A stretch of DNA of 64,000 nt, taken from IMG/VR virus record IMGVR_UViG_3300030419_005367, positions 1 through 64,000 of that record; one strand, 5' to 3'. Below, one piece after another: positions 20,093-58,152 of the stretch; position 1 is the stretch's first letter, and each line of letters opens with the position of its first letter. The position numbers and the translations under genes are program-made. The notes under the pieces are model-generated. The model searched no databases and was not told where the DNA came from. It worked only from the letters and a program-made list of their open reading frames with translations. This DNA is from a virus.

Positions 20093-21679
20093 ATGGGACA
20101 CCAACTCACAAAGAAAGAGATCACAAGAGAAATTCTCAAGTGTGGTAAAGACCCCGTTTATTTCATCAACAATTATGCAAAGATTTCCCACCCGATGCAC
20201 GGGCTGGTACCTTTTAAGCTTTATGATTATCAGGCTGATCTAGTCGAAGACTTTAACGATTACCGCTTTAACATTATCCTTAAGGCTCGACAACTTGGTA
20301 TTTCTACGGTAACTGCTGCATACATTGCTTGGCTGATGATGTTTCACCGCGACAAGAACATTCTTGTTATGGCAACAAAGTTTGGAACAGCAGGAAACTT
20401 AGTTAAGAAAGTAAAAGCTATTGTAAAAAATCTACCATCTTGGGTTAGGATTGCAAATGTTTCCATCGACAACAGAACTTCTTTTGAGCTTTCTAACGGA
20501 TCTCAGATTAAAGCATCTTCAACCTCTGGCGATGCTGGTCGTTCCGAAGCGCTGTCTCTTCTTGTAATTGACGAGGCTGCCCACGTTGATGGCCTTGAAG
20601 AGTTATGGACAGGTCTTTATCCTACATTGTCCACAGGTGGTCGCTGCATCGCCCTTTCAACCCCAAACGGTGTCGGAAACTGGTTTCACAAGAGCTACAC
20701 AGATTCAGAAAGCCAGCAAAATGATTTTCACCCAACTCTTTTAATGTGGGATGTACACCCAGATCGTGATCAAGAATGGTTTGAACATGAGACAAGAAAT
20801 ATGTCTCGTCGCCAGATTGCACAAGAGTTGGAATGCAACTTCAATACTTCTGGTGAAACAGTAATCCATCCGGAAGACATTAATCGCATGCTAGAGGATG
20901 TTTGCGAGCCAAAATATAGAACCGGCTTTGATAGAAATTTTTGGATTTGGGAAAGTTATCTTCCGGAATGCACTTATCTATTATCTGCCGACGTTGCGAG
21001 AGGTGATGGTAAAGATCATTCTGTTTTTCATATATTTAAATTAGATACAATGGAGATCGTGGCTGAGTACCAAGGAAAGGTAGCACCAGATGTTTTCTCT
21101 CAAATTATTGCAGACGCCGGAGGCGAATATGGAAATTGCTTAGCTGTTGTCGAAAACAACACAGTGGGCTTCGCAGTTTTAGATAAATTAAAAGAAAAAG
21201 ATTACCCAAACATTTATTATTCAATTAAATCAAGTCACCAGTATGTAGACCAACTCGAAGCTGAACATAACAGTTCTGCAGTGGCGGGATTTACAACATC
21301 TCTAAAAACACGCCCAATGATCGTGGCTAAAATGGAAGAGTTCGTAAGAAACAGACTAGTTAAGGTGTATTCTTCCAGACTTCTAAACGAATTTAAAACA
21401 TTTATTTGGAATAATGGACGCCCGCAGGCAATGCGTAGCTATCATGATGATTTAATTATGGCTTTTGCAATTGGTTGTTGGGTGAAGGATACTGCATTCG
21501 CCGAGGCGCAAAGAGACGTGCAATATCAAAAAGCAATCTTAAATTCTATGAAGAAAAGTGATAGTATAATGAATACAACTATTCCGGGCATGCAAGGGTA
21601 TAGACCCACGAATAGTTCGGAAAAAGCAAAAACAGAGACCGAAAAGAATAAAGACTTTATGTGGCTCTTTAAAGGATAA
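20093..21679 (+). CDS. Terminase large subunit (gp17-like)
   Basis: A 528-residue DNA-packaging motor. The ATPase has a deviant Walker A KARQLGIST at 64-72, Walker B LLVIDEAAHVD with D160-E161, and the coupling motif STPNGVGNWF at 189-198. The C-terminal RNase H-like nuclease has LSADVARGDGKDHS with D300, and YHDDLIMAF near 450 with the late acidic pair. Length fits the T4 gp17 family. The portal gene follows after 5 bases, the classic packaging pair. Confidence 0.95.
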   Translation: MGHQLTKKEITREILKCGKDPVYFINNYAKISHPMHGLVPFKLYDYQADLVEDFNDYRFNIILKARQLGISTVTAAYIAWLMMFHRDKNILVMATKFGTAGNLVKKVKAIVKNLPSWVRIANVSIDNRTSFELSNGSQIKASSTSGDAGRSEALSLLVIDEAAHVDGLEELWTGLYPTLSTGGRCIALSTPNGVGNWFHKSYTDSESQQNDFHPTLLMWDVHPDRDQEWFEHETRNMSRRQIAQELECNFNTSGETVIHPEDINRMLEDVCEPKYRTGFDRNFWIWESYLPECTYLLSADVARGDGKDHSVFHIFKLDTMEIVAEYQGKVAPDVFSQIIADAGGEYGNCLAVVENNTVGFAVLDKLKEKDYPNIYYSIKSSHQYVDQLEAEHNSSAVAGFTTSLKTRPMIVAKMEEFVRNRLVKVYSSRLLNEFKTFIWNNGRPQAMRSYHDDLIMAFAIGCWVKDTAFAEAQRDVQYQKAILNSMKKSDSIMNTTIPGMQGYRPTNSSEKAKTETEKNKDFMWLFKG

Positions 21680-28836: not shown

Positions 28837-30687
28837 ATGTCTGTACTTGATAAATTAACAGAAGGCATTGTTAATCGCGATCTCCAAAAGGAAGGTGCTG
28901 CTCTACTGAATAAGTGGGAGAAGACCGGTCTTTTGGAAGGAATTACCAGTGACTCACAAAAAAATGGAATGGCTGTCCTGCTTGAGAACCAAGCAAAAGA
29001 GCTACTTAGAGAGGCTTCCTCGATGGCAGCCGGTGATGTTGAAGGCTTCGCAGCCGTAGCATTCCCGCTTGTTCGTCGTGTATTCGGTGGTCTTGTTGCT
29101 AACGATCTTGTATCCGTTCAGCCAATGAGCCTTCCATCCGGTCTCATCTTCTTCCTCGACTTCACTTACGAAGGCCGCGAGGGTATTGTACAAGATCCGG
29201 GCGATTCCGTCTACGGCGGTAACGTGGTTGCATCCCAGTTGACTGGTGGTGTTACTAACATCACAGAAGAGGGTGGTGGTTTTTATAACCTCGCAAATGC
29301 TTATTCGCATGCTACCTCTTCGATCGCTCTCGACGAGTCGACCGCGACCGCAATCGGTTCAGCAGAAGAAAATCACGTTCACGATGAGCTTACCGACGCC
29401 GGCCCATTCACCACTGCTGGTGGTGTAACAATTAGCTCCCTTACGGCAGCACAAAAGAAGGTTCTTCGTTTTGATCCTGACATTCTTGCTGCTTCTGCTG
29501 GTACTGTTTCTCACCTTTTGGTAAGACTTTCCACTGCTAATATGAACACCATTAATCTCGATAATCTTAGCACTATCGATCTTAGTGACTCCGCTGGTAA
29601 TACACTTTACGGTATTTCCACTGCAAGAGTTGTTAGAAGACTAACACACCTTGGTTATTATGACACTAGTGGTAATAGTATCGTAGCTGGCTCCAAGACT
29701 AACTACATTAGTTTGTATGTTCAGTCCGACGCCGACAGTGCTACTCATGAGCTTGCAGGTTCTGACGGCACAGATGCACTTGAACTTCACGTTCCTATTA
29801 AGGACGCTATGGCTTCTTCGGACAATGTTGGTTCTGTGGTTGGTGAAGCTTCTTGGGCTCTTGAAGAGCCACAAGACGGAACTGGCAACGCTGGTAATGC
29901 AACTGGCAAAAACGAGATTCCTGAGATCGACATCAAGGTTGACTCTGTTTCCGTTACTGCAATGACAAAGAAGCTCAAGGCCAAATGGACCCCAGAGCTT
30001 GGTCAAGACCTTAATGCTTACCACAACCTCGACGCTGAGGTTGAGCTTACTGGTATTCTCTCTGAGCAGATCGCTCTTGAGATCGACCGTGAGATCCTCA
30101 ATGACCTCATCACTGGTGCAACTGCTGGTACTCGTTACTGGTCTCGCGCCCCGGGCCTTTTCGTAGACTCAACTGGTACTGAGCTTGGTGCTGCTTCGGC
30201 TGCTCCAGACTTTACTGGTACAGTATCCGAGTGGTACGAGACTCTCGTTGAGACAATCAACGATGTTTCTGCTCAGATTCACCGCAAAACTCTTCGCGGT
30301 GGTGCCAACTTCATCGTCGTTGGGCCTGAAGTTGCCAACATTCTTGAGTTCACAAACGGTTTCCGTGCAGACGTAACTGGTGATGTTGACCGTGGTACGG
30401 TTGGCGCAGTTAAGTCTGGTGCACTTAGCAAGAAGTGGGATGTATACGTAGATCCTTACTTCCCTCGCAACGTAGTACTCGTTGGTCGTAAAGGTGGTTC
30501 GTTCCTTGAGAGCGGATTTGTTTACGCTCCATACGTACCGCTGCAGGTCACACCTACTATCTTCGGTACCGAAGACTTCGTTCCTCGCAAGGGAGTGATG
30601 ACTCGTTATGCCAAGAAGATGGTACGTCCTGATATGTACGGTCTAGTAGTCGTTCGCGGCTTGCTTGGTGAGGAAGGCGCTAGCTAA
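28837..30687 (+). CDS. Major capsid protein precursor (gp23-like)
   Basis: A 616-residue HK97-fold capsid protein. Family landmarks are FPLVRRVFGGLVANDLVSVQP near 75-95, LPSGLIFFLDF near 101, and DSVSVTAMTKKLKAKWTPEL with LDAEVELTGILSEQIALEIDRE at ~370-430. Between these, ~120-350 is a large beta-rich insertion, making it longer than T4 gp23 (521). The N-terminus LLRE-ASSM near residue 59 looks like a T4-type protease site (L-x-E). Codons are strongly biased, as expected for the most abundant protein. GGAG at 28827-28830 sets the start. Confidence 0.95.
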   Translation: MSVLDKLTEGIVNRDLQKEGAALLNKWEKTGLLEGITSDSQKNGMAVLLENQAKELLREASSMAAGDVEGFAAVAFPLVRRVFGGLVANDLVSVQPMSLPSGLIFFLDFTYEGREGIVQDPGDSVYGGNVVASQLTGGVTNITEEGGGFYNLANAYSHATSSIALDESTATAIGSAEENHVHDELTDAGPFTTAGGVTISSLTAAQKKVLRFDPDILAASAGTVSHLLVRLSTANMNTINLDNLSTIDLSDSAGNTLYGISTARVVRRLTHLGYYDTSGNSIVAGSKTNYISLYVQSDADSATHELAGSDGTDALELHVPIKDAMASSDNVGSVVGEASWALEEPQDGTGNAGNATGKNEIPEIDIKVDSVSVTAMTKKLKAKWTPELGQDLNAYHNLDAEVELTGILSEQIALEIDREILNDLITGATAGTRYWSRAPGLFVDSTGTELGAASAAPDFTGTVSEWYETLVETINDVSAQIHRKTLRGGANFIVVGPEVANILEFTNGFRADVTGDVDRGTVGAVKSGALSKKWDVYVDPYFPRNVVLVGRKGGSFLESGFVYAPYVPLQVTPTIFGTEDFVPRKGVMTRYAKKMVRPDMYGLVVVRGLLGEEGAS

Positions 30688-46200: not shown

Positions 46201-47057
46201 ATCTCAGCTTCTATGGACTGACTTACCCACGCCCGGGCCAACATTTTTATTTGAAATTAAAGAACTTTGGTGACCCTAGATCAAAACGCAGCCGCGGCAC
46301 AACCTTGCTAGCTGGCAATTATTCCGTCCAAGCTAGTCCTTCGCGAAGACTGGGCATCGGCGGATATTATATGATGAACAAGATTGAGCATAACTTCAGG
46401 GCTGAAGGTGGCAGAACCTATTGGGAAACGATGACTCAAGCTTTGTGGACCACCTTTGGAGATCGTAAAGCAGAGAATAATCGAACACTGAGCAACACAC
46501 CGGATCCATTTAGCAACCCTGCAGACTACGGCACCGGTGCAATGCTAATGGCTGGAAATGCGGAACATTCCACGGTGCTTAGAAACATCGACCGCAGACT
46601 TTCAGAGGCCGGCATCACTGCCCGAGGTTCACTTGCCCCCGGACGCGCAAGCGAGGTGTTACCAGAAGAAGACCAAAAATATACTGGCAACACCAACAAA
46701 CAAATACAATTAGCAGAACTTAGAGTCAAGGAGATCCGGAAACGCGCTGAGGGCGAAGAAGGCATCCTAGGAACAATGGATGTGGACCCCAGCAGAGAGT
46801 ACGAATTTAAATCTCTTGCCGAAGATTTAGCCGAGAAAAGAGAGGAGGCTAGAGAAAAACCCGTTCTTAGCACGAAAGATATTACTAGCGATATCGACTT
46901 TACCCCAGAAGAGCAATCAAAAATGCGAGCAGAATATAATGCGGCCAACGAAGCCCGCCTCCGCGAAAACTCTGGAAAAGTCATCTCTCGCCGTAAAGAT
47001 CCCCAAACTGGTGAAATCATCGAAACCACACTCCCAGAATATGAAGGTGGTGAATAA
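43227..47057 (+). CDS. Large baseplate hub-type protein
   Basis: A 1276-residue protein, the largest in the tail block. It starts IPNNIDECFLLDFMSDIATF. Near residues 990-1075 it has LSFYGLTYPRPGQHFYLKLK, LGIGGYYMMNKIEHNF and GRTYWETMTQALW, the sort of beta domain seen in tail hub proteins (gp27/gpD). A coiled, charged region occupies ~430-640, and the last ~170 residues are charged and helical. It may combine the roles of hub and spike-anchoring subunits. No lysozyme motif was seen. Confidence 0.65.
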   Translation: MAEEKIPNNIDECFLLDFMSDIATFRGITNFEKQSEHVVILDDKHSGDSKLFLNQLIDPEYQSLMDACPKNLFQSLSPMVNLYKVFYDPADTTKEEIKSVKFQFGKFDPLKAKQAIRELRTSYGDDAALYGGFRPGHLAPSITEANIVFDGQNPAEASAFVKVNLKLYFPSSDALFFKKNIAGQEMSFANLIERPTVPKAQNAQLMLEDNHRVYSQDNFRIKMELFYLPKDSTFLNDDKVWGKDFPLNRRRAIMELISNNRLTLFLNIVKHEFSFDHDNVNLPFYLDVQYIGALESAMNTKHADILKDPEYDRKMGEIMKTEEYRNYQLAKLASDSLGLQNLTKAGVNIDTVSHRNVKARGLPNEVSEFVITPEMVERYQITLLAEPGKTYGGEPDFDRHHRIMDIPELAAGYEERKLSKDAMDNLKGAIKSESKAWAQVGVEWSVRKSLALQNYGETKRAYDKLLKDRGMLEDQQRSRSYSRIIEQLYGRVGKGESATFGSASTLSESDQTRLKRAGNPYVYTVEVPAGDLRDYVNRRGSRALDKETEKSLKELEKNGDTAAADELRRQRESIQNDTRSFYKHFWKKINPQLLKAQRDITIVEGAEFEGIFGDDEGYTKTSQTTGREYTAEQAVSTADILRQIAKKQIEGGKTDELHNLLKKSTDRAIAPEKLTGTYAINYFFLGDLIDIVLKTVHQSNSKHHLNLYADSENKNSTPTGKDLVNKTLFVLGNITWNDFTSNGKKTISLDRVPISMKLFMEFWIEKVVKRQRKSYPLNQFIKDVMTNLVKAVFTNKCRIHGEPLNNLTCNLEHVSVNPDISGDPKINLIPSMAEEDIRKAYFGALLPISSAARILLTRPTKAQILKAATRAESDAPPIPNFAELASSNSSVRKRAQRQQKRRARHEKRPFHQLNTVELIYVYATNDKPEHLQGNRKKDVDAGVVHLEVGNPNSPLKQVSFNKSDQPFYLEAKGETNDLKDNSLELSEPYNLDLSFYGLTYPRPGQHFYLKLKNFGDPRSKRSRGTTLLAGNYSVQASPSRRLGIGGYYMMNKIEHNFRAEGGRTYWETMTQALWTTFGDRKAENNRTLSNTPDPFSNPADYGTGAMLMAGNAEHSTVLRNIDRRLSEAGITARGSLAPGRASEVLPEEDQKYTGNTNKQIQLAELRVKEIRKRAEGEEGILGTMDVDPSREYEFKSLAEDLAEKREEAREKPVLSTKDITSDIDFTPEEQSKMRAEYNAANEARLRENSGKVISRRKDPQTGEIIETTLPEYEGGE

Positions 47058-48403
47058 TGCCAGATTCAACAAGTACATACGCCCAGTTTTACTATAAACA
47101 ATCAAGACGAGATGCATTTCCTAAATTTGGACCAAAGCCGATGGATGTGCATTATGAGAAACTTCATTATGGTAAGGTTGATCAAAAACAGTATTCTGTT
47201 TATATGACAGACCCCTTGAACTTGTCTCAACTACAGCCCGGACAACCTCACGTTGCGCTAGATTTCGTTGCCGACGCCTTTGGGGATTTGCAGAGGTATT
47301 TCTCGAAAGCAGTATCTTTAGGCAGGTTACACAAAAGAGGTAAGTTTTATAAAGGCATCGAGGCCCGCGGAGGCTGGAGAGATGTAAACACTCTTTATTC
47401 CAACTGGCTCGTAGGGATATATGCTGGATTTGAAGCATATTTGTTAGCTGGAGATAAGCCTAAAAACCAAGAGATTAGGTCTTTTGGGGATTATGTAGAC
47501 AATTTTATCAATTATGTTTCTGCTATAGCTTCTGATTGGCCAATAACAAAAACAGGGTGGATTAAATCAAGGCACTGTCCCGCAAATATTAGTGGCTTGA
47601 TAGTCGATATTTCTAGAGATCCTTTTTCTGACGAAGAAGTTGCAAAAAGATGGCTTCAAGATCCAAATTTTGTTTTTTATAGGAATGCTGCCATAAAACA
47701 CGGATTTTTAGTTACGAAGAATGCCCCGTGGAGGCTGTATGCAAATGTTGCTTCTGTGGAAATGCAGAACTATTGGACAAGAACAATAGAACCAACACCA
47801 GAACAAGTTGAGATAGCGAGGAATGCTGGCTGGACAGATGCACAAATAATCCAATCTTACAGAAAGACGAGTTCTAAGAAAGGTTTGGTATATTCCCCCG
47901 GCAATGCATCAAATTTATTTAATCTTTACTACAATAGAAGTTATAAATATGATATACTAGAGCTAATGAACTCCTTGGGAAGATATTATAATCGATTTGT
48001 CCAGAGGTATCCAACCGTTACAATCCTTAAGCCTACATCACTGTCCTGCGCCACCCCCGGTTCGGTTGATAAAACGGTAATCTTTAGGTCACGAGTTGAC
48101 TTGGCCGAAGTCGAGAGAGTCTTTCTTCCCCTAGGGATACCTTTTTACATTTTCTTAAGAGCCAGTGAAGAATCGATCTTCGGCTACATGGATCCTAAGA
48201 GGTTTGACAGGATCGTAGAAAAATCAGCTTTTTTGTTAAAAAAGGTTGACTTAGATAAAGCAATGCTGTATATTAATAAGAGTATAAGTAGAATTGCCTC
48301 ACAGAAAGCAGCCGCGAACCCTGAGTTCTGTCAGAACTATCAAAGCTGTAATCTACAGGCGGGCAGTTTGGTTGATTATACATATGTGAAAGAACATTCA
48401 TGA
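47057..48403 (+). CDS. Probable tail/baseplate protein, unknown
   Basis: A 448-residue protein that starts on the last base of the previous stop codon (TAATG), so it is coupled to the hub-type gene. It is Tyr/Trp-rich (YAQFYYKQSRRDAF ... VYMTDPLNLSQLQPGQPHV). No enzyme motif is evident. It is the last gene of the virion block. Structural role is inferred from coupling. Confidence 0.65.
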   Translation: MPDSTSTYAQFYYKQSRRDAFPKFGPKPMDVHYEKLHYGKVDQKQYSVYMTDPLNLSQLQPGQPHVALDFVADAFGDLQRYFSKAVSLGRLHKRGKFYKGIEARGGWRDVNTLYSNWLVGIYAGFEAYLLAGDKPKNQEIRSFGDYVDNFINYVSAIASDWPITKTGWIKSRHCPANISGLIVDISRDPFSDEEVAKRWLQDPNFVFYRNAAIKHGFLVTKNAPWRLYANVASVEMQNYWTRTIEPTPEQVEIARNAGWTDAQIIQSYRKTSSKKGLVYSPGNASNLFNLYYNRSYKYDILELMNSLGRYYNRFVQRYPTVTILKPTSLSCATPGSVDKTVIFRSRVDLAEVERVFLPLGIPFYIFLRASEESIFGYMDPKRFDRIVEKSAFLLKKVDLDKAMLYINKSISRIASQKAAANPEFCQNYQSCNLQAGSLVDYTYVKEHS

Positions 48404-48410
48404 GGAAAAA

Positions 48411-49598
48411 TTGCTTTTTCAAACACTTGATGACAAACAAGAATGCATTGGAGTTTATATCGATGGTGAAATATATTACGGAGAACTTCCTGAAGGTCTT
48501 ACTGCAACTTGGGAGTATGCCCCTTATCTTGATGGACAAGATATTGACTACGCTGGGCTATACTGTGCTGGATTGTCTTGCAGCGGGGCTTGTCCCGAAT
48601 CGCTAAAAGACCAGTGGGAAGAAAAGACTGATAGACTGAAGGCTTTTTTGAGATCTTTTCAAGAATCAAAAGTCGACCTTCATGAGAACTGCTTTTTTGA
48701 GTTGGTTCCGTCTAGGTTTCTATTAGAATATTGTGAACTTAAGAACAAGATTACAAGACATGTTCTAGAAAACTATTCACGTCCTAAAAATTACGATTTT
48801 AACCTAGGTTTGACCAAGTTGACTAGTCAAATTAGGGGACAAAAAATCAATTTGGATCTGGAGTCCTTGAATGGGCAGATGTCTAGTTTTAGAACGAGGC
48901 AGTGGAAAAACAAATTGGCATCCTTGCCCCCTTATATACATTATAATATGTATGGGACAAAGACAGGCCGCTTCACAACAAAGAAAAATAGCTTCCCAAT
49001 CCTCACTCTCGCAAAAGAGCTTAGAAAGGTGATAAAGCCGCAGAATGATTGGTTTATTGAGCTTGATTTCAATGCAGCCGAACTTCGAACGCTATTGGCC
49101 CTTTCCGGGCAGGAACAGCCAGAGCAAGACATTCACACTTGGAACGCCAAACACGTCTATAACGACGAACTGACGCGTGATGAGGCTAAGAAACGAATCT
49201 TTGCTTGGCTATACAATCCAGTTTCGAAAGATAACCTCTCTTCTGGCGTTTATGACAGAGATTCGGTGCTTAAAAAGTATTGGGACGGTGAACAAGTATG
49301 TACCTTTTATGATAGAATAATACCTGCGGATAAGCACCATGCTTTGAACTATATTATTCAAAGTACGACGAGTGATACCTTTTTGAGGAGGGTCTTGGCC
49401 GTCAATAAGTTACTTCAAGACAAAAGGTCCAAAATCGCATTTTGTATTCACGATAGTTTGGTTCTGGATTTTGCGGACGAGGATAGGGAATCCTTATTGG
49501 AGATGATAAAGGAATTTTCTGAGACAGATTTGGGCGTATTCAAAGTTAATGTTCACGCCGGCAAAAATTTTGGTGAAATGAAGGAAATGAAACTGTGA
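48411..49598 (+). CDS. Minimal family A DNA polymerase (no exonuclease domain)
   Basis: A 395-residue polymerase domain. Before motif A is YGTKTGRFTTKKNSFP. Motif A is ELDFNAAELRTLLALSG with D219. Motif B keeps the R-x3-K-x3-F-x3-Y spacing: R256, K260, F264, Y268 in RDEAKKRIFAWLYN, though the usual Gly after Tyr is Asn. Motif C is IHDSL with H347-D348-S349, not HDE. Residues 1-~130 are not a 3'-5' or 5'-3' exonuclease. Start TTG 48411 with GAGG at 48402-48405. It may act in repair or gap filling beside the DnaE-type enzyme at 62751. Confidence 0.85.
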   Translation: MLFQTLDDKQECIGVYIDGEIYYGELPEGLTATWEYAPYLDGQDIDYAGLYCAGLSCSGACPESLKDQWEEKTDRLKAFLRSFQESKVDLHENCFFELVPSRFLLEYCELKNKITRHVLENYSRPKNYDFNLGLTKLTSQIRGQKINLDLESLNGQMSSFRTRQWKNKLASLPPYIHYNMYGTKTGRFTTKKNSFPILTLAKELRKVIKPQNDWFIELDFNAAELRTLLALSGQEQPEQDIHTWNAKHVYNDELTRDEAKKRIFAWLYNPVSKDNLSSGVYDRDSVLKKYWDGEQVCTFYDRIIPADKHHALNYIIQSTTSDTFLRRVLAVNKLLQDKRSKIAFCIHDSLVLDFADEDRESLLEMIKEFSETDLGVFKVNVHAGKNFGEMKEMKL

Positions 49599-49906
49599 AA
49601 GTGTACAACAAATTGATAAGAGATAAGATACCTTTAATAATGACGAAAGAAGGAAAAGAGTTTTCCACTCACATTGCTTCAGATGAAGAATATAGGAAAA
49701 AACTAAAAGAGAAACTATTTGAAGAAGTAAATGAATTTTTGAAGGATCCCTGTCTTGAAGAATTGGCTGATATTGCTGAAGTATTCGGAGCACTAGTACC
49801 AGCTTTGGGATATACTATCGACCAGTTGGAGACAGAGGTACGTAAAAAGAAAAGAAGTAAAGGAGCTTTCCGAAAACGAATAATTTTGGAAACTGTGGGG
49901 GAATAA
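49595..49906 (+). CDS. MazG-like/phosphoribosyl-ATP pyrophosphohydrolase-like protein
   Basis: A 103-residue all-alpha NTP pyrophosphatase-type protein: YNKLIRDKIPLIM at the N-terminus, the metal-binding helices KLFEEVNEFLKDP and EELADIAEVFGAL, and KRSKGAFRKRIIL at the end. Members hydrolyse NTPs or ppGpp-like nucleotides; the exact substrate here is unknown. Start GTG 49595 overlaps the polymerase stop as GTGA. Confidence 0.85.
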   Translation: MKVYNKLIRDKIPLIMTKEGKEFSTHIASDEEYRKKLKEKLFEEVNEFLKDPCLEELADIAEVFGALVPALGYTIDQLETEVRKKKRSKGAFRKRIILETVGE

Positions 49907-49907
49907 A

Positions 49908-50783
49908 ATGGAAACGATTATTGGCTTAGGTCAAGCTGGCTGCAATATCGCAGATGAATTTGCAAAATATCAAGAATATGAGGTTTACAAGATTGATGTC
50001 GGACTAGATGCTTACGAAGAAACTCCTTATGGAGACTTCCCAAAAGAAGGATTGTTCAATATGCCGGCACAAAGTAGCCCTGAAGACTACGAGTCTTTTT
50101 GCCCGAACATGAAAAACTTCTTTAAAGACATAAAGGGCGAGATTTTGTTTGTATTTGGAGGATCTGGAGATATATCAGGAGCCTGCTTAAGGGTTTTGGA
50201 GCATCTTAGAGGTAGGGACATAAACATACTTTATATACGCCCGGACACTGATCTTTTGCCTGAAAGAAGAAGACTACAAGAACGAGTTACTTTTAATGTC
50301 TTGCAAGAATATGCGAGATCTGCTGTTTTCAAAAGAATCTTTTTGATAGACAACCCTGCACTGGAAAGGCACATCGGCGACGTTCCTTTAATCGGTTATC
50401 ACAACAAACTAAATGAAATGATCGTGTCCACAATTCATATGATAAACGTATATAACCATATTGAATCTGTAACCGATACGTTTTCTGACCCCTATGAAAC
50501 TGCAAGGATTTCAACCATTGGATTGTTGGACGTGGAGAGCGGCGAAGACAAAAAGTTTTTTTCTCTTGACAATGAGCGAGAAGTACGTTATTATTATGCA
50601 ATAAACAGAGACAAACTGAGATCAGATGGCGCTTTGTTTAAAAAGATCAAACAACAGGTAAAAGAGAAAGCAAGTGAAAACACAAAAATTAGTTACGGAA
50701 TATTCGCAACGAAATATGAACAAGACTTTGCTTATACCTTGAGTTATAGTTCGTCAATTCAAACAGGAGAAGAAAATGACTAG
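49908..50783 (+). CDS. Tubulin/FtsZ-like GTPase, divergent
   Basis: A 291-residue protein beginning ETIIGLGQAGCNIADEF, like the first GTP-binding loop of tubulin/FtsZ. Residues ~79-100 have ILFVFGGSGDISGACLRVLE, a variant of the GGGTGSG signature loop (84-91). Next come YIRPDTDLLPERRR and a helix FNVLQEYARSAVF, in the places of the FtsZ sugar-binding region. It is shorter than FtsZ. The T7 catalytic loop is not clear, so polymerisation is uncertain. Known phage tubulins (PhuZ) position replicating DNA. It sits among replication genes. Confidence 0.65.
   Translation: METIIGLGQAGCNIADEFAKYQEYEVYKIDVGLDAYEETPYGDFPKEGLFNMPAQSSPEDYESFCPNMKNFFKDIKGEILFVFGGSGDISGACLRVLEHLRGRDINILYIRPDTDLLPERRRLQERVTFNVLQEYARSAVFKRIFLIDNPALERHIGDVPLIGYHNKLNEMIVSTIHMINVYNHIESVTDTFSDPYETARISTIGLLDVESGEDKKFFSLDNEREVRYYYAINRDKLRSDGALFKKIKQQVKEKASENTKISYGIFATKYEQDFAYTLSYSSSIQTGEEND
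50566..50594 (+). promoter_or_regulatory. Intragenic sigma-70-like promoter TTGACA-17-TATTAT
   Basis: A near-consensus promoter inside the tubulin-like gene, 182 bases before the small gene at 50776 and ahead of the SSB gene. Confidence 0.55.
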
Positions 50784-51045
50784 TGTTAATGGTTTTAAAG
50801 GAACATTCATTAAACAGAATGGAGAAGAGCGTCAGATGACGTTCGTAAAACTGACAGAGCTTCCAGAAGAATTTCTTAATTCAAAAGTTAAGGGAACTGG
50901 TAAGCAAACAAAAATGACTGAGGGCCGAGAGTTGGTGTGGGAGGTTGACCACGGCTTCCGCGTATTCAACTGGAACTCAGTCGTTGGTCGAGTAGAAAGC
51001 GTCTCTGTTAAAAAAGATACTTTTACGCTTGACAAAAAAGTTTAA
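50776..51045 (+). CDS. Small SH3-like protein (DUF2693-like candidate)
   Basis: An 89-residue beta-type protein: GFKGTFIKQNGEERQMTFVK, LPEEFLNSKVKGTGK and HGFRVFNWNSVVGRVE. The pattern resembles a small uncharacterised phage family (DUF2693, from memory). AGGAGAA at 50765-50771 lies inside the previous gene, which it overlaps by 8 bases. It is adjacent to SSB, so a DNA-metabolism role is possible. Confidence 0.7.
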   Translation: MTSVNGFKGTFIKQNGEERQMTFVKLTELPEEFLNSKVKGTGKQTKMTEGRELVWEVDHGFRVFNWNSVVGRVESVSVKKDTFTLDKKV

Positions 51046-51117: not shown

Positions 51118-51861
51118 ATGGCTATTGATTTAGAGAAAATGAAAGCAAAGCTTAACAAGCTTCAAAATAAGGGATCGCAGGATACTGTATTCTGGCGTCC
51201 GGAGGACGGTGAACAGACAATTCGTATTGTTCCAACTCCAGATGGAGATCCCTTCAAGGACTTCTGGTTCCATTATAATGTGGGCAAGAATCCCGGCTTT
51301 CTAAGCCCAAAGAAAAACTTTGGGGAATCTGATCCGCTGGACTCTTTCGTGCGTGAGTTGTTCGACGAAGGCACAGAGGACAGTATTAAGATGGCGAAGA
51401 ACCTTATGGCTCGCCAACGATTCTTCTCGCCCGTAATTGTACGAGGTGAAGAAGATAAGGGTGTCCGTATCTGGGGGTACGGAAAGATGGCTTACGAAAA
51501 GCTGTTGAGCCTAGTACTTAATCCAGAGTACGGTGATATCACCGATTCTGAGGAAGGTACAGACCTAGTGATTCATTATGGAAAGCCAGTAGGCGCTAGC
51601 TTTCCTCAAACAAAGATCACACCACGTCGCAAAAACTCGGCTTTATGTGACGACAACTCGCGCTGCAAAGAGTTACTTGAAAATATCCCCGACTTCAACA
51701 CTCTTTTCGAGCGCAAGACACCTGAAGACGTGGGGCAAATGTTAGATGAGTTCCTCGCAGGTGAAGAGAGTGCTGAAGAGCGCTCTAAAGAAACTACCAA
51801 GTATGGCGATGACACCACAAAGGATGTCGACGCAGCTTTTGAAGAGCTTCTTGGTAGTTAA
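51118..51861 (+). CDS. Single-stranded DNA-binding protein (gp32-like)
   Basis: A 247-residue protein with TVFWRPEDGEQTIRIVPT near residue 23, FKDFWFHYNVGKNPGFLSP near 47 and IWGYGKMAYEKLL near 121, plus an acidic C-terminal tail (~215-247) used for protein contacts. It would coat ssDNA in replication and recombination with UvsX. In T4 gp32, His64 and three Cys hold a zinc. Here the corresponding segment SPKKNFGESDPLDSF has no Cys, so the zinc site seems lost. AGGAGAA at 51107-51113 sets the start. Confidence 0.87.
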   Translation: MAIDLEKMKAKLNKLQNKGSQDTVFWRPEDGEQTIRIVPTPDGDPFKDFWFHYNVGKNPGFLSPKKNFGESDPLDSFVRELFDEGTEDSIKMAKNLMARQRFFSPVIVRGEEDKGVRIWGYGKMAYEKLLSLVLNPEYGDITDSEEGTDLVIHYGKPVGASFPQTKITPRRKNSALCDDNSRCKELLENIPDFNTLFERKTPEDVGQMLDEFLAGEESAEERSKETTKYGDDTTKDVDAAFEELLGS

Positions 51862-51928: not shown

Positions 51929-53059
51929 ATGGCAAGACCAAAAAATACAAAACCCGGAAAGATTTCCATGGGCGACATTCGCAGTATGATCAACAAGCGA
52001 GCCGGAATGAATGTTGCACATAACTTACAAGAAGCCAACCCTACAGAGGTGAAAGAGTGGATTCCAACAGGATCCCGTTGGCTTGATTCTATTATTTGTC
52101 GAGGACAACTTGCCGGTATTCCAGTAGGAAAGGTTGTGGAGATTGCAGGACTTGAAGCATCAGGTAAGTCTTATATGGCTGCACAGATTGCAGCGAACGC
52201 TCAGAAAATGGGTATTGACGTAGCTTATTTTGATTCCGAGTCTGCGATTGATCCCGACTTCTTAGAACGCGCAGGCTGCGATCTGGAAAGACTACTATAT
52301 GTACAGGCTCAGTCAGTTGAGTTTGTCCTAGAGACGATTGAGGAGCTTTTAAGCACTGGCAACAAGTTTCTTTTTATCTGGGACTCTCTTGCCTTAACAC
52401 CAGCGATTAGCGACTTGGAGGGGGACTTCAACCCGCTTTCTTCGATGGCTGTAAAGGCTCGAATCTTAGCGAAAGGTATGTCAAAATTGACAATTCCTAT
52501 CGCAGATACGCAATCGACCTTCTTGGTGCTTAACCAATTGAAAACAAACATCACTAGAAGCCCCTCTGAGGCTCTTGTGGAGCCCTATATGACCCCCGGA
52601 GGCAAGGCAATGATTTATGCCTACTCTTTGCGTGTTTGGCTCACAGGCCGCAAATCTAAGGCTTCTTTTATTACCGATGACCGCGGCTTCCGAGTAGGAT
52701 CAGAAGTCAAAGCTACTCTAAAGAAGAGTCGTTTTGGAACACAAGGTCGCCAGTGTACATTTAAGATTATGTGGGGCGATGAAATTGGAGTTCAGGATGA
52801 AGAGTCTTGGTTTGAAGCGGTTAAAGGCTCTAAGCACATGACTAGTTCTGGTTCTTGGTACACCCTTGATATGGGTGACGGAAACTCAGTTAAGTTCCAA
52901 CCATCAAAATGGAAAGAGAAGATTCAAGACGAAGCATTCCGTGCTCGCATTTTACAACTCATCGATGAAGAAGTAATCCTTAAGTTTGATAAACGAGAAG
53001 GCACTGCTGCTGATTACTATGACATTGAAGGCGAGACAACTGATGACTCCGACGAATAA
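51929..53059 (+). CDS. uvsX: UvsX/RecA-type recombinase
   Basis: A 376-residue strand-exchange protein. Walker A GLEASGKS at 74-81, AYFDSESAIDP near 99, Walker B FLFIWDSLAL near 150 and the L2 region TRSPSEALVEPYMTPGGKA near 210 match UvsX. The C-terminus is acidic (GETTDDSDE). It would start recombination-dependent replication with the Mre11-Rad50 fusion, SSB and resolvase. The next gene starts inside its last 17 bases. Confidence 0.93.
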   Translation: MARPKNTKPGKISMGDIRSMINKRAGMNVAHNLQEANPTEVKEWIPTGSRWLDSIICRGQLAGIPVGKVVEIAGLEASGKSYMAAQIAANAQKMGIDVAYFDSESAIDPDFLERAGCDLERLLYVQAQSVEFVLETIEELLSTGNKFLFIWDSLALTPAISDLEGDFNPLSSMAVKARILAKGMSKLTIPIADTQSTFLVLNQLKTNITRSPSEALVEPYMTPGGKAMIYAYSLRVWLTGRKSKASFITDDRGFRVGSEVKATLKKSRFGTQGRQCTFKIMWGDEIGVQDEESWFEAVKGSKHMTSSGSWYTLDMGDGNSVKFQPSKWKEKIQDEAFRARILQLIDEEVILKFDKREGTAADYYDIEGETTDDSDE

Positions 53060-54017
53060 AAACAGAGTACTGATCGTTGATGCATTAAATATGTATTTTC
53101 GGTCATATATCGTAGACCCTAGCCTCTCCACCAACGGACAGCCAATTGGTGGAGTTAAAGGCTTTCTCAAGATCCTTCAAAAGCTCCTTCGCGAAACAAG
53201 GCCAGATCAAGTGGTTATTGCTTGGGACGGACCCGGCGGATCTAGAAAGCGAAAGACAATAAACAAGAACTATAAAGAAGGCAGGAAGCCCCTGCGTTTA
53301 AATAGAGATATCAAGCACTTAACTGAAAATGAGGAGCTTGAAAACAAACTTTGGCAACAAGCGAGATTGTTTGAATACTTGAACGAGATGCCCGTGTCTC
53401 AGGTGATGCTCCCTGAAGTAGAAGCTGACGATGTTATTGCCTATGTTACACAAATGGAGTCTCTGAAAGGCTGGCAGAAAGTTGTTGTGAGTAGTGATAA
53501 AGATTTCTTTCAACTCTGCGATGAAGAAACAATTTTGTTCAGACCAGTACAAAAGGAAGTTTTAAACCAAGCTAGAATCTCTGAAAAGTTTGGGATTCAT
53601 CCGACGAACATGGCTCTCGCCAGAGCTATGGCAGGTGATAAGAGCGATAACCTCCCCGGCGTCCCCGGAGCAGGCTTAAAGTCTATCGCTAAACGATTTC
53701 CGTTTTTAGCAGAGGAAAAGACATGTGATTTAAAAACTCTTTTCGATTACTGTGAGAGTTTAGACAGCAATCTGAAAATATTCACAGGCGTGCTGGAAAA
53801 CAAAGAAGTAATCGAGGAGAACTATAAGATAATGCAACTATACTCTCCAAACATATCTATTCAAGGAAAGAATAAGATATGCTATGCGATAGAAGAGGCA
53901 GAACAACAGTTTAATAAGACCGAAGTTATGAAGATGATGAACGAAGATGGCTTCGGCGTTTTCAACTGGACAGACTTATTCGCGACAATGAAAAGAATTG
54001 TTGCAGATAACGCTTGA
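53043..54017 (+). CDS. 5'-3' exonuclease (FEN/T4 RNase H type)
   Basis: A 324-residue nuclease that would remove RNA primers and flaps. Metal-binding acids are seen in LIVDALNMYF (D13), AWDGPGGSRKR, PEVEADDVIAYV, VVSSDKDFFQL and the helix-hairpin-helix AGDKSDNLPGVPGAG. I chose ATG 53043 (MTPTNKNRVLIVDAL); an earlier in-frame start at 52986 adds 19 residues that only translate the uvsX overlap. Confidence 0.9.
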   Translation: MTPTNKNRVLIVDALNMYFRSYIVDPSLSTNGQPIGGVKGFLKILQKLLRETRPDQVVIAWDGPGGSRKRKTINKNYKEGRKPLRLNRDIKHLTENEELENKLWQQARLFEYLNEMPVSQVMLPEVEADDVIAYVTQMESLKGWQKVVVSSDKDFFQLCDEETILFRPVQKEVLNQARISEKFGIHPTNMALARAMAGDKSDNLPGVPGAGLKSIAKRFPFLAEEKTCDLKTLFDYCESLDSNLKIFTGVLENKEVIEENYKIMQLYSPNISIQGKNKICYAIEEAEQQFNKTEVMKMMNEDGFGVFNWTDLFATMKRIVADNA

Positions 54018-54059: not shown

Positions 54060-54338
54060 ATGAAAAGATTTATATTTTTAACGGGCTTGTTTTTGTCAAG
54101 TTGTTTGGTTGTAGATTCTAGAATTCCAGAACCAACAGGTCCGTATTTATTAGAGCCAGTTTGTGATAACGTTGAGCAATTATACTGGGACTTGGGAAAC
54201 CCAACATACTGCTACCCAGATCAGTGCTGTATTTGGGAATATTATGATTATGATGGATGGCTCTGCGAAGAGACGTGGTGCGAATACTGGGATTCTTATG
54301 GTTGCTGGTGGGAAAACATTGATGTTGTGTGCTGGTAA
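54060..54338 (+). CDS. Small Cys/Trp/Tyr-rich lipoprotein
   Basis: A 92-residue protein with a signal peptide MKRFIFLTGLFLSSC and lipobox LSSC (C15), so lipidated and membrane-bound after export. The mature part is acidic and full of Cys, Trp and Tyr (CYPDQCCIWEYYDYDGW, then ETWCEYWDSYGCWW), with eight further Cys that could form disulfides. Phage lipoproteins of this size often block superinfection; that role is inferred. AGGAGA at 54048-54053 sets the start. The stop overlaps the helicase start as TAATG. Confidence 0.8.
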   Translation: MKRFIFLTGLFLSSCLVVDSRIPEPTGPYLLEPVCDNVEQLYWDLGNPTYCYPDQCCIWEYYDYDGWLCEETWCEYWDSYGCWWENIDVVCW

Positions 54339-55708
54339 TGAAAGATACTAAGGCTAGCTTTTCAAAATATGGCAGAAAGTTTCAGGAAAGTCTTTGTCAA
54401 CTTATGTTGCAGGATCGATCTTTCTGTGATCAGTTAGTAGAGGTCTTTGACATTGAGTTTTTAGAACTTAAGCACTTACGAGTATTCGTCAATCAGGTTG
54501 TGGAGTACAAACAAGAGTATGAAACACACCCATCGCGTGAAACGATGATGACTCTTTTGCGCGCAAACTTGGATGATGAAAGCGAAGCAATAAAGCTCCA
54601 AGTTAGGGACTACTTTGCTCGTATTCACAAGTCAGACATGGGTGTCGACGGCGAAGAGTACATTAAGAAAACAGCACTAGATTTTTGCAAGAAACAAAAG
54701 CTCAAAGAAGCTATGATCAAGTCAGTCGGCCTTTTGCAAAAATCTTCTTTTGATGAGATCGCAGAAGAAATTAACAATGCCTTAAAACTAGGTTCTGATA
54801 ATAATTTTGGCTATGATTACCTTAAAGACTTTGAAGAGAGGTTCGTGTTCAGACCTAGGAACCCAGTCACTAGCGGTTGGAAATATATTGATGAAATTTG
54901 CGAAGGTGGCTTGGGTCAAGGTGAGCTTGGAGTGGTCATCGCCCCAACCGGTGCAGGAAAGAGTATGGCTCTTGTACATTTAGGCGCTGAAGCTATAAAA
55001 TCAGGCAAAAATGTGATACACTATACACTAGAGCTAGGGTCGACAGTAATAGCATCGAGGTATGATAGTTGTATGACAAAAGTGCCGTTAAAAGAGTTGC
55101 CAGCATTTAAAGATATGATCTATGATAAGGTGAAAGATCTCGAAGGGCGCTTAATTGTTAAAGAATATCCAACAAAATCTGCCTCACCGGCCACAATCAA
55201 GAATCACCTTGAAAAACTTAAGCTTAGAGGCATTTCTATCGATATGATTATTATAGATTATGGTGATTTATTAAGACCTTCTGTCATTCGTAAAGAGAAA
55301 CGACACGAGTTGGAGACTATTTACGAAGACCTCAGGGCGATAGCTCAGGAATATGAATGTCCCGTTTGGACAGCATCTCAGACAAACAGGTCTGGATTGA
55401 ACGCAGAAGTCATTACGATGGAGTCAATCTCTGAGGCTTTTAATAAGTGTTTTGTTGCAGATTTTATTTGCACGATTTCACGTACAGTGGAGGACAAAAT
55501 AGATAACGAAGGAAGAATGTTTGTAGCAAAGAACAGAAATGGTCCTGATGGGTTGGTGTTCCCAATGAAAATAAATACATCAAACGTGCAGTTGGAGGTT
55601 TTAGAACCCGGAACTGACAATACAATCCAATCTGTGGTTGTAAAAACTGCGAGAGAGCAGAAAGATTTATTAGCTGACAAGTATAAAAAATTTAGGAGCA
55701 AACAATGA
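54338..55708 (+). CDS. Replicative DNA helicase (DnaB/gp41-like)
   Basis: A 456-residue RecA-fold helicase. Walker A APTGAGKS at ~202-209, IHYTLELGSTVIASRYDS after it, Walker B DMIIIDYGDLLRP near 305 and the sensor-like ASQTNRSGLNAE near 345. The N-terminal 170 residues are helical, as in gp41/DnaB. It would unwind DNA and recruit the primase at 5114. I prefer ATG 54338 (TAATG overlap with the lipoprotein stop) over GTG 54329. Confidence 0.92.
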   Translation: MKDTKASFSKYGRKFQESLCQLMLQDRSFCDQLVEVFDIEFLELKHLRVFVNQVVEYKQEYETHPSRETMMTLLRANLDDESEAIKLQVRDYFARIHKSDMGVDGEEYIKKTALDFCKKQKLKEAMIKSVGLLQKSSFDEIAEEINNALKLGSDNNFGYDYLKDFEERFVFRPRNPVTSGWKYIDEICEGGLGQGELGVVIAPTGAGKSMALVHLGAEAIKSGKNVIHYTLELGSTVIASRYDSCMTKVPLKELPAFKDMIYDKVKDLEGRLIVKEYPTKSASPATIKNHLEKLKLRGISIDMIIIDYGDLLRPSVIRKEKRHELETIYEDLRAIAQEYECPVWTASQTNRSGLNAEVITMESISEAFNKCFVADFICTISRTVEDKIDNEGRMFVAKNRNGPDGLVFPMKINTSNVQLEVLEPGTDNTIQSVVVKTAREQKDLLADKYKKFRSKQ

Positions 55709-58152
55709 CATACACAAAGCAAGAAGTAGAAGCGGCAACATTAGAATATTTTAAGGGCGATGAACTCGCTACAAACGTTTGGATATCCAAATATGCCCTT
55801 AAAAAGAAAAATGGGGATTTACTAGAAAAAACACCGGACGACATGCACAAAAGGTTGGCCAAAGAATTTGCAAGAATGGAAGAGAAGTTCGGTGGTGATC
55901 GCTCCCTTACAGAAGAGAAAATCTATGGCTACTTGAAGAACTTCGATTATGTCGTCCCTCAGGGATCTCCAATGATGGGGATTGGAAACAACAACGTTAA
56001 GGTTTCGCTCTCAAATTGTGTCGTTGTGGATTCTCCGCAGGATAATGTGTCTTCGATTATGGATTCTGGGAAGCAATTAGCCAACTTGTTCAAGCGACGT
56101 TGTGGCGTTGGTCTAGACATCTCAGATCTTCGTCCAGACGGAGCAGAGGTTAATAACTCAGCCGGTACCACCACCGGAGCTTGGTCATTCGCTGACTTTT
56201 ATTCCTATGTTTGTCGTATGATTGGGCAGAATGGCCGTCGTGGCGCACTTATGATCACAATGGACATTCGACACCCTGACGTTGAGCAGTTTGTTACAAT
56301 GAAACACGACCTGACCAAGGTCACTGGAGCAAATGTGTCCGTAAAGATCAACGACGACTTTATGAAAGCAGTAGAGAACAACGACGTCTTTACTTTGCAA
56401 TTCCCTGTGGACTCTGACAACCCAACTCACACAAAAGAGATAGACGCAGTTGAGCTTTGGGACAAGATTATTGAGTCTGCAACTAAGACAGCAGAACCGG
56501 GCCTGATGATGTGGGACAACATTGTAAACTATTTGCCAGCACACGAGTACGCTGATCAGGGCTTCAAAACAGTCACGACAAATCCGTGTGGCGAACTACC
56601 TCTCTCAGCAAACGACTCTTGTCGTCTCATCTCTATTAATCTTAAAAACTTTGTCAAGAATCGTTTTACCAGTAAGGCTACTTTTGATTATAAACAGTTC
56701 GCCAAGGTTGTGTCCGTGGGTCAACGTTTATCTGACGACCTTGTAGAACTTGAAGTTGAGAAGCTTGAAGATATTGTGAAGCATTGTGATACAAAAGATG
56801 AAAAGGCTATGTGGAAGAAGCTTTTACATGCTTGCAAGACCGGTCGCCGCACAGGTCTAGGCACACACGGCCTTGCAGATGCCCTCGCCAACCTTAATAT
56901 AGCTTACGATTCAGACGATGCGTTGAAGGTTATCGATAAGATTTATTCTACCCTGCGTAACGAAGCTTATTCAGAGTCAGTTGAATTGGCAAAGGAGAGG
57001 GGTCCGTTTTCCATCTTCGATTGGGACACAGAGAAGAGCAACTTGTTTATTTCAAATCTGCCAAAAATTTTGCAGGAAAAAATTTCCAGATTTGGAAGAC
57101 GTAATATTTCAATTCTGACAAATGCTCCAACTGGATCTGTTTCGATTATGTCTCAGACTAGTTCCGGCCTAGAGCCAGTGTTTCGTAACAGCTACACTAG
57201 ACGCAGGAAGTTGTCCCATGATGAGGCAGATGTTGAGGCGGACTTTGTTGATGACCTTGGTGACCGATGGCTTGAATATAAAGTCTTCCACCATAATGTT
57301 CAGGAGTGGTTGGATACCATAGGAGCAACGAGGACATCTGCAGAAGACGCCCTCCCAGAGTTCTTTACAACTAGTGATCAGATTGACTGGAAGAAAAGAG
57401 TGGAGATTCAGTCTGTCATTCAGAAGAGTATCGATCATTCTATTAGTTCGACGATTAATCTTCCGAAAGACACTGAACCCTCAACTGTTGCTGCATTATA
57501 TCTTTTGGGCTGGAAGCTGGGACTAAAAGGTATTACAGTATATGTTGACGGGTCGCGATCTGGCGTGCTTGTTACTAACGATGAAAAAACAGAGGAAAAG
57601 TTTTGTTCATCAACAGCGCCCAATCGCCCAGAGGTTCTAGACTGCGATATTCACCATACTACTATTAAAGGTGAGAAATGGACTATTCTAGTCGGCAAAC
57701 TCGATGGAAAGCCTTACGAGGTAATGGGGGGTCTCTCAAATTTGATCGAGATTCCATCATCCCTTGTAAAGGGAACGTTAACTAAGGTTAAGTTTAAAAC
57801 AAAAGATAATCGTTATGACTTAACGGTAGGTAAAAATGGTGATACTATGATTGTACGCGATGTCGTGAAAGTATTCGACAACCCAAACAACTCAGCATTC
57901 ACTCGAATGATATCTCTATCTCTTCGGCACGGAGCAAGGCCAAGTTTCTTGGTTGAGCAACTTCAGAAGGACAAAGACAGTGATATGTTCAGCTTTTCAC
58001 GCTGTGTTGCTAGGATTCTTAAGAATTATATTCAAGACGGCGAAAAAGCTCATTCTGATAAGGCATGCCCGGGCTGCAGTAACGAAAGCAGCTTGATTTA
58101 TCAGGATGGGTGCGTAACTTGTACGGCATGTGGCTATTCAAAATGCGGATAA
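55705..58152 (+). CDS. nrdJ: Class II (B12-dependent) ribonucleotide reductase
   Basis: An 815-residue reductase that would turn ribonucleotides into deoxyribonucleotides using adenosylcobalamin. Catalytic residues: C105 in SLSNCVVVDS and N293-C295-E297 in TNPCGELPLS. GSVSIMSQTSSGLEP near 480 is typical of the barrel. The C-terminus has paired Cys (CPGCSNE ... GCVTCTACGYSKCG) for thioredoxin-type recycling. No small subunit is needed or seen, which favours class II. It starts ATGA-overlapped with the helicase. Confidence 0.93.
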   Translation: MTYTKQEVEAATLEYFKGDELATNVWISKYALKKKNGDLLEKTPDDMHKRLAKEFARMEEKFGGDRSLTEEKIYGYLKNFDYVVPQGSPMMGIGNNNVKVSLSNCVVVDSPQDNVSSIMDSGKQLANLFKRRCGVGLDISDLRPDGAEVNNSAGTTTGAWSFADFYSYVCRMIGQNGRRGALMITMDIRHPDVEQFVTMKHDLTKVTGANVSVKINDDFMKAVENNDVFTLQFPVDSDNPTHTKEIDAVELWDKIIESATKTAEPGLMMWDNIVNYLPAHEYADQGFKTVTTNPCGELPLSANDSCRLISINLKNFVKNRFTSKATFDYKQFAKVVSVGQRLSDDLVELEVEKLEDIVKHCDTKDEKAMWKKLLHACKTGRRTGLGTHGLADALANLNIAYDSDDALKVIDKIYSTLRNEAYSESVELAKERGPFSIFDWDTEKSNLFISNLPKILQEKISRFGRRNISILTNAPTGSVSIMSQTSSGLEPVFRNSYTRRRKLSHDEADVEADFVDDLGDRWLEYKVFHHNVQEWLDTIGATRTSAEDALPEFFTTSDQIDWKKRVEIQSVIQKSIDHSISSTINLPKDTEPSTVAALYLLGWKLGLKGITVYVDGSRSGVLVTNDEKTEEKFCSSTAPNRPEVLDCDIHHTTIKGEKWTILVGKLDGKPYEVMGGLSNLIEIPSSLVKGTLTKVKFKTKDNRYDLTVGKNGDTMIVRDVVKVFDNPNNSAFTRMISLSLRHGARPSFLVEQLQKDKDSDMFSFSRCVARILKNYIQDGEKAHSDKACPGCSNESSLIYQDGCVTCTACGYSKCG

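Follow-up and report, generated by a model that had tools for sequence, protein, structure and literature searches.

The window, the whole 64,000-nucleotide stretch of viral DNA analyzed here and part of a 73.7-kb record, contains at 49908..50783 (+ strand) a gene of 291 codons, starting with ATG, that represents a new and widespread family of tubulins. The family is cryptic at the sequence level, and the gene, which we call TUB1, is a core gene of the phage replication module. Membership of TUB1 in the tubulin/FtsZ superfamily is virtually certain.

In single-sequence searches TUB1 barely rises above the noise. Its similarity to the Pfam Tubulin family (PF00091) is confined to residues 4-26, the T1 loop, with an E value of 0.089 and a score of 13.5 bits against a gathering score of 33, and no Pfam family scored above the cut-off. 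No significant match to TUB1 was found in PHROGs, in PDB sequences (phmmer and hmmsearch), or in INPHARED. The initial annotation of TUB1 as a tubulin/FtsZ-like protein drew attention to the motifs GLGQAGCNI and GGSGDISG, and both are present, at residues 6-14 and 84-91; on the sequence of the one protein, that call could have been due to chance. Chance can be excluded because AlphaFold models of TUB1 match FtsZ and TubZ and because the pocket positions are kept across 178 distinct members of the family.

The AlphaFold2 model of the TUB1 protein of the window has a pLDDT of 89.7 and a pTM of 0.89. A Foldseek search of the PDB with this model returned FtsZ or TubZ structures for all of the best 50 matches, with a best E value of 4.1e-13, TM scores by query of 0.57-0.69 (about 0.67), and rmsd values of about 5-7 Å. 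The model of a second member (L021), which is 36% identical to the TUB1 of the window, has a pLDDT of 94.5 and a pTM of 0.91 and again retrieved only FtsZ and TubZ among its best 50 matches (E value 1.5e-12, TM score up to 0.74). Among viral predicted structures, TUB1 matched best, with a TM score of 0.76, a protein labeled "FtsZ" from an uncultured Caudovirales phage, and the tubulin-like protein of Edwardsiella pEt-SU ranked lower. By our reading of the DSSP assignments, both models have the elements S1, H1, S2, S4, H4, S5, H5, S6, H6, and H7 in the order found in tubulin, followed after H7 by a C-terminal domain with S7, S8, H10, S9, and S10. A GTPase domain, H7, and a C-terminal activation domain are recognizable in both. 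The tubulin/FtsZ fold proposed for TUB1 was therefore recovered twice, each time with the tubulin Rossmann core. Helices H8 and H9 are not found at the expected places in either model, and a C-terminal helix is absent from the DSSP assignment of both. Across the 178 sequences the chain ends 0-16 residues beyond Q285, with no H11 and no acidic tail. As modeled, TUB1 is a minimal tubulin of about 280 residues and about 30 kDa.

A search of IMG/VR with the single protein recovered 21 TUB1 loci with identities of 35-100%, and a search with a 16-member alignment recovered at least 594 TUB1 relatives among at least 600 matching stretches. Family-wide comparisons were made with an 85-member alignment and, later, with the 178 distinct sequences. 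A scan of 84,980 prokaryote genomes, seeded with the 16-row alignment because the 85-row alignment was too diverse as a seed, found one full-length relative, in the chromosome of a WOR-3 MAG. In this record (CP070664.1, L108, WOR-3 bacterium bin77) the polymerase-TUB1-SSB-UvsX operon is flanked by runs of N, and the copy represents either contamination or a link to a host. The other 11 matches in prokaryote genomes cover the T1 loop alone. The two that were inspected, and their homologues, come from Dehalococcoidia and belong to the Pfam Tubulin family. CetZ-like proteins have been described in Dehalococcoidia (PMC9871819), and the label CetZ-like is assigned here by taxon and Pfam Tubulin domain.

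Comparison of the 85-member TUB1 profile with the Dehalococcoidia CetZ-like proteins by hhalign gave a probability of 94.7% and an E value of 5.6e-8; in controls an unrelated profile gave 0.15% and the true pair PhuZ and FtsZ gave 88%. Against FtsZ the TUB1 profile recovered the T1 loop only, and the probabilities against PhuZ and against TUB2, a second phage tubulin family described below, were 1.4% and 1.0%. Because the FtsZ, PhuZ, and TUB2 comparisons are weak, sequence alone ties TUB1 to the CetZ-like proteins only, with PhuZ and FtsZ as the yardsticks. Over a stretch of 18 residues the T1 loops of TUB1 and the CetZ-like proteins reach 72% identity, and the Asn residues of T6 and H7 are in register, N149 and N169 of TUB1 lying opposite N180 and N198 of the CetZ-like proteins. 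Unlike TUB1, which has about 280 residues and no GGTGSG motif, the CetZ-like proteins have about 392 residues and a T4 loop with the sequence GGTGSG, and are cellular.

The T1 loop of TUB1, GLGQAGCN (residues 6-13; 49923..49946, + strand), is glycine-rich and conforms to GLGxxGC in nearly all 178 sequences. Specifically, G8 is present in 176 of 176 aligned sequences, G6 in 174, G11 in 172, and C12 in 167. Loci L044, L052, and L043 encode the altered T1 loops ALGTVAC, ALGTVSC, and GLGCAGV, and nucleotide binding may be weakened in this sub-branch. The T4 position is occupied by GGSGDISG (residues 84-91; 50157..50180, + strand), for which the family consensus is about [GASC]-G-S-G-x-[IV]-S-[GA]; the canonical T4 signature GGGTG[ST]G occurs in none of the 178 TUB1 sequences. 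The hhalign alignment places N149 (50352..50354, + strand) as the counterpart of the T6 Asn and N169 (50412..50414, + strand), at the start of H7, as the counterpart of the guanine-contacting Asn/Asp of that helix. Each is conserved in 170 of the 178 sequences, and H7 spans residues 164-183 in the DSSP assignment of the window's TUB1 model. As judged from these sequence features, TUB1 is likely to bind a guanine nucleotide.

The T7/H8 region (residues 184-200; 50457..50507, + strand), which contains no H8 in either model, varies more than any of the other nine segments with which it was compared. Its mean column entropy is 2.41 against 1.87 overall, and the value for T3 is 2.10; the corresponding values for T1, H5, and the end of H7 are 0.85, 1.08, and 1.29. 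Positions 191 and 194, which in our own alignment correspond best to the acidic residues of FtsZ, are acidic in 5 and 88 of the 178 sequences, respectively, and a D/E-x-x-D/E motif lies anywhere in the T7 region in 67 of them. No conserved pair of catalytic acids was found in the T7 loop among the 178 sequences, and T3 is also variable and devoid of conserved catalytic acids. Inspection of the T7 loop had been suggested in the initial annotation, and the degenerate state of the region, with no H8, suits a non-hydrolyzing and perhaps non-polymerizing protein better than a PhuZ-like motor. The most conserved segment outside the pocket is the end of H5, QEYARS (residues 133-138; 50304..50321, + strand), in which R137 is found in all 178 sequences and Q133 and S138 are each found in 177. 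At the end of H7, H177 and M178 are found in 173 and 172 of the 178. If TUB1 follows the topology of tubulin, H5 and H7 would both end near the T7 pole. This pattern of entropy and invariance indicates that the loops normally used for filament contact and hydrolysis have been free to vary while other residues have stayed fixed.

TUB1 lies within a set of replication genes, all on the + strand of the window. Directly upstream in most relatives is a family-A DNA polymerase (48411..49598, 395 residues; PF00476, 2.6e-17), and close downstream in nearly all loci is a T4-type single-strand DNA-binding protein (SSB; 51118..51861; phrog_1192, 1.6e-25). An optional MazG-like ORF (49595..49906), with a weak match to PF12643 (0.014), precedes TUB1 in the window and is present in 22 of 97 loci, and an ORF of 89 residues (50776..51045), present in 13 loci, shares 8 nt with the 3' end of TUB1. 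The SSB gene is followed by genes for a UvsX-like recombinase (51929..53059; phrog_97, 1.9e-54), a 5'-3' exonuclease (52986..54017; PF02739, 4.8e-31), a DnaB-like replicative helicase (54329..55708; phrog_19, 1.4e-73), and the large subunit of ribonucleotide reductase (55705..58152; phrog_84, 1.9e-116). The order polymerase, (MazG-like), TUB1, SSB, and then UvsX, exonuclease, DnaB, and NrdA is maintained in nearly every locus. The polymerase, the weakly matching MazG-like ORF, the SSB, and the UvsX-like recombinase that the initial annotation had named are all neighbors of TUB1. No TubR-like neighbor is evident among the operon genes.

Three further features of the operon were noted. Almost every locus has, ahead of the polymerase, a gene of 448 residues (47057-48403 in the window) that is fast-diverging, with a median identity of 0.26, and that matches no family or PDB sequence. 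Loci L050 and L059 have extra ORFs of 850 and 641 residues between the polymerase and TUB1. An apparent tubulin-SSB fusion, a 572-residue open frame in G004, proved to be merely TUB1 and SSB in one frame with a stop between them.

Many genomes show an overlap of 1, 4, 8, or 13 nt between TUB1 and the polymerase gene at the polymerase stop codon, an arrangement typical of translational coupling. Circularity in judging the conservation of TUB1 was avoided by scanning IMG/VR with SSB and polymerase profiles as baits, which yielded 149 new loci. All 119 of the loci with both polymerase and SSB hold TUB1 between the two, and TUB1 is contained in 121 of 121 complete intervals; the loci kept were the best matches to the clade, so that core status is claimed at the level of the clade, and part of the contigs overlap earlier ones. 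A single copy of TUB1 is present in all eight genomes with lengths of 165-190 kb, which had likewise been retrieved with baits taken from this operon. The median pairwise identities of TUB1, polymerase, and SSB are 0.446, 0.472, and 0.592, and the divergence of TUB1 is correlated with that of the polymerase (0.76), which may be explained by adjacency alone. It is probable that TUB1 has a core role in the replication module.

The large terminase (20093..21679, + strand) is 43% identical to that of Flavobacterium phage immuto and 41% identical to that of Microcystis phage Mel-JY01, its nearest cultured relatives, and the major capsid protein (28837..30687, + strand) is of the Far-T4 type. Capsid and terminase are both T4-type, with immuto, Mel-JY01, and Rhodothermus RM378 as the nearest cultured phages. 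On the evidence of these sequences, TUB1 is carried by an uncultured marine Far-T4 lineage that combines a T4-like virion with a family-A polymerase, and this group of marine phages is very common. The virion genes are of the same type as those of the Far-T4 phages surveyed previously, and no tubulin or FtsZ is mentioned in that survey (PMC4360716). The description of the phage as T4-like holds for its virion genes, which are nearest to Far-T4, but not for its replication module, which is built on a family-A polymerase. No gp45-type clamp was found in four relatives of 165-186 kb or in three of four comparison phages, the fourth giving a weak match below the cut-off. Also in the window, at 6056-9208, is an ORF of 1050 residues with an SbcD-like N-terminal part and an SbcC-like C-terminal part, apparently a fused nuclease.

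TUB1 is lacking in Mel-JY01, immuto, RM378, and LR756508. Mel-JY01 and immuto have SSB, a RecA-like protein, an exonuclease/polymerase-I-like protein, and a helicase in the same run of genes, without TUB1, and it follows that TUB1 was either gained in the marine lineage or lost outside it. Immuto and Mel-JY01 have in common a small protein (L295:1346-1798 and L294:5675-6061), 42% identical, that is encoded upstream of SSB, in the region of the operon that TUB1 occupies in other phages. The two small ORFs between polymerase and SSB of immuto were considered as a split tubulin, and this was rejected; neither ORF resembles half of a tubulin by eye, and one of them belongs to the separate family shared with Mel-JY01.

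The best explanation overall, in which our confidence falls a little short of even, is that TUB1 is a minimal and divergent tubulin/FtsZ member of the core of the Far-T4 replication module, where it acts as a nucleotide-bound, non-hydrolyzing scaffold. The scaffold mechanism itself is advanced tentatively. In the normal cycle of tubulins, the T7 loop of one subunit completes the active site of the next. TUB1 would be made jointly with the polymerase through translational coupling and would bind GTP or GDP without a normal hydrolysis cycle. Stabilized by the nucleotide, it would serve as a scaffold or adaptor where the phage DNA is replicated, with the invariant H5/H7 surface (Q133, Y135, R137, S138, H177, M178, and N180) holding a partner, which might be PolA, SSB, or TUB1 itself. 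That surface could alternatively be a new contact between subunits, or could reflect mere core packing. Counting against a scaffold, the relatives Mel-JY01 and immuto replicate without TUB1. The D190A variant of PhuZ, in which the catalytic Asp is removed, still polymerizes with GTP (PMC4244570), and by analogy the loss of the T7 acids from TUB1 would stop hydrolysis but not necessarily polymerization.

The main and strongest rival to the scaffold reading, although rather unlikely, is that TUB1 forms a PhuZ- or TubZ-like filament. Its head-to-tail polymers would assemble through an altered interface and would position the replicating DNA of the phage or segregate it. The fold is the same, TubZ is among the best structural matches, and TUB1 is located with replication genes. 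Since PhuZ polymerizes without its catalytic Asp (PMC4244570), the missing acids do not exclude polymers, and the H5/H7 patch could provide a new longitudinal contact. Nevertheless, the loops that normally form the contacts between subunits, T3 and T7, are both more variable than the protein as a whole, H8 is absent from both models, and the few residues after Q285 leave TUB1 with neither H11 nor an acidic C-terminal tail. The TubZ of phiKZ has H11 and an acidic knuckle and relies on rearrangements of T3, H10-S9, and H11/tail (PMC3678025). The low hhalign probability for the TUB1 and PhuZ profiles also argues against a filament of this kind. It is unlikely that TUB1 is a constitutive part of the replisome, a non-hydrolyzing monomer or static oligomer locked with guanine nucleotide that keeps SSB and the family-A polymerase tethered to the fork; in that role it would perhaps do the job of the sliding clamp of classical T4-like phages.

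It is improbable that TUB1 acts on host FtsZ as a decoy or cap, joining or blocking host protofilaments and so halting division during infection. A protein with the FtsZ fold in which one face is usable and the T7 face is degenerate would be a natural cap. However, to our knowledge, the known phage inhibitors of FtsZ are small proteins without a tubulin fold. Inhibition of FtsZ by phages does have precedent in Kil (PMC3961180) and T5.008 (PMC10714956). The T3 and T7 surfaces, which a decoy ought to keep, are variable in TUB1. The universal slot between polymerase and SSB, the frequent overlap with the polymerase gene, and the polymerase-like divergence look like those of a core replication gene, and this core status in the replication operon makes a decoy less likely.

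The second phage tubulin family, TUB2, was found by Pfam Tubulin scans of large genomes (L296:1030-2121 and L297:991-2028, both on the - strand, and L304-L383). TUB2 proteins have 346-364 residues, and a T4 loop with the sequence GGGGGTGS and two T7 acids (QTFDSKDL) are invariant in ten sequences. The comparison of the TUB2 profile with FtsZ gave 94.3%, with a match that extends through T7. IMG/VR contains at least 107 TUB2 relatives, on contigs of up to 281 kb, many of them under 200 kb, and a search of INPHARED gave no match. In some loci TUB2 is near portal-like genes. It is very improbable that TUB1 and TUB2 form a two-tubulin system, an α/β-like pair with one inactive partner. The T4 and T7 loops of TUB2 are intact and five large genomes carry both genes, but six of eight TUB1 genomes of 165-190 kb have no TUB2, nine of 12 TUB2 records (some of which are fragments) have no TUB1, and TUB1 is near TUB2 in none of 80 TUB2 loci. 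An obligate pair is ruled out by this co-occurrence, as neither protein needs the other. Most improbable of all is that TUB1 is no tubulin but another protein of the Rossmann type that binds a nucleotide or dinucleotide and has a similar-looking glycine loop. This reading is suggested by weak matches of family members to TrkA_N, DXP reductoisomerase, and CoA-binding domains and by alcohol oxidase (hmmsearch). It is opposed by the models, which match FtsZ/TubZ along their full length, H7 and C-terminal domain included, with nothing else among the best 50 of each, and by the 94.7% hhalign probability with the CetZ-like proteins.

TUB1 resembles PhuZ and the TubZ of phiKZ in being a phage-encoded protein with a tubulin-superfamily fold. 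It has no sequence match to PhuZ, lacks H11 and the acidic tail, occurs in smaller genomes, and is placed between polymerase and SSB, which PhuZ in phiKZ is not. TubZ_C_2 (PF22334), which phiKZ PhuZ matches at 1.7e-37, has no match in TUB1. Bacterial FtsZ and plasmid TubZ are the best structural matches, yet TUB1 differs from both in lacking GGGTG[ST]G, the T7 acids, H8, and H9. Another divergent FtsZ-like family, FtsZl1, also has an atypical T7 region and was proposed to contact its neighbors in the filament differently or, with less likelihood, not at all (Makarova and Koonin 2010, PMC2875224). FtsZl1 keeps GGGTG(S/T)G, adds coiled coils, and has no clear T6-H7, whereas TUB1 keeps T6-H7 and has lost the T4 signature. 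With no T4 signature, about 280 residues, and a replication rather than a vWA/kinase context, TUB1 is not a member of FtsZl1.

The tubulins of phages have mostly been known as motors that form filaments, either in nucleus-forming jumbo phages or in plasmid-like phages. The view in the initial annotation that the known phage tubulins are the PhuZ proteins of jumbo phages fits the PhuZ family among the INPHARED matches listed, but the literature also describes phage tubulins of the TubZ type, and many TUB2 contigs are under 200 kb. The diversity of phage tubulins has been underestimated, TUB2 being a second family missing from the isolate collection. TUB1 has a tubulin fold, escapes motif and family searches, and is locked into an operon in an abundant marine phage lineage and coupled to its polymerase. 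If TUB1 does polymerize, it would be the smallest tubulin known to us and must use a new contact. If it is a non-hydrolyzing scaffold, the tubulin fold would be used outside cytoskeletal motion. Our findings suggest the recruitment of a cytoskeletal fold to the replication of phage DNA.
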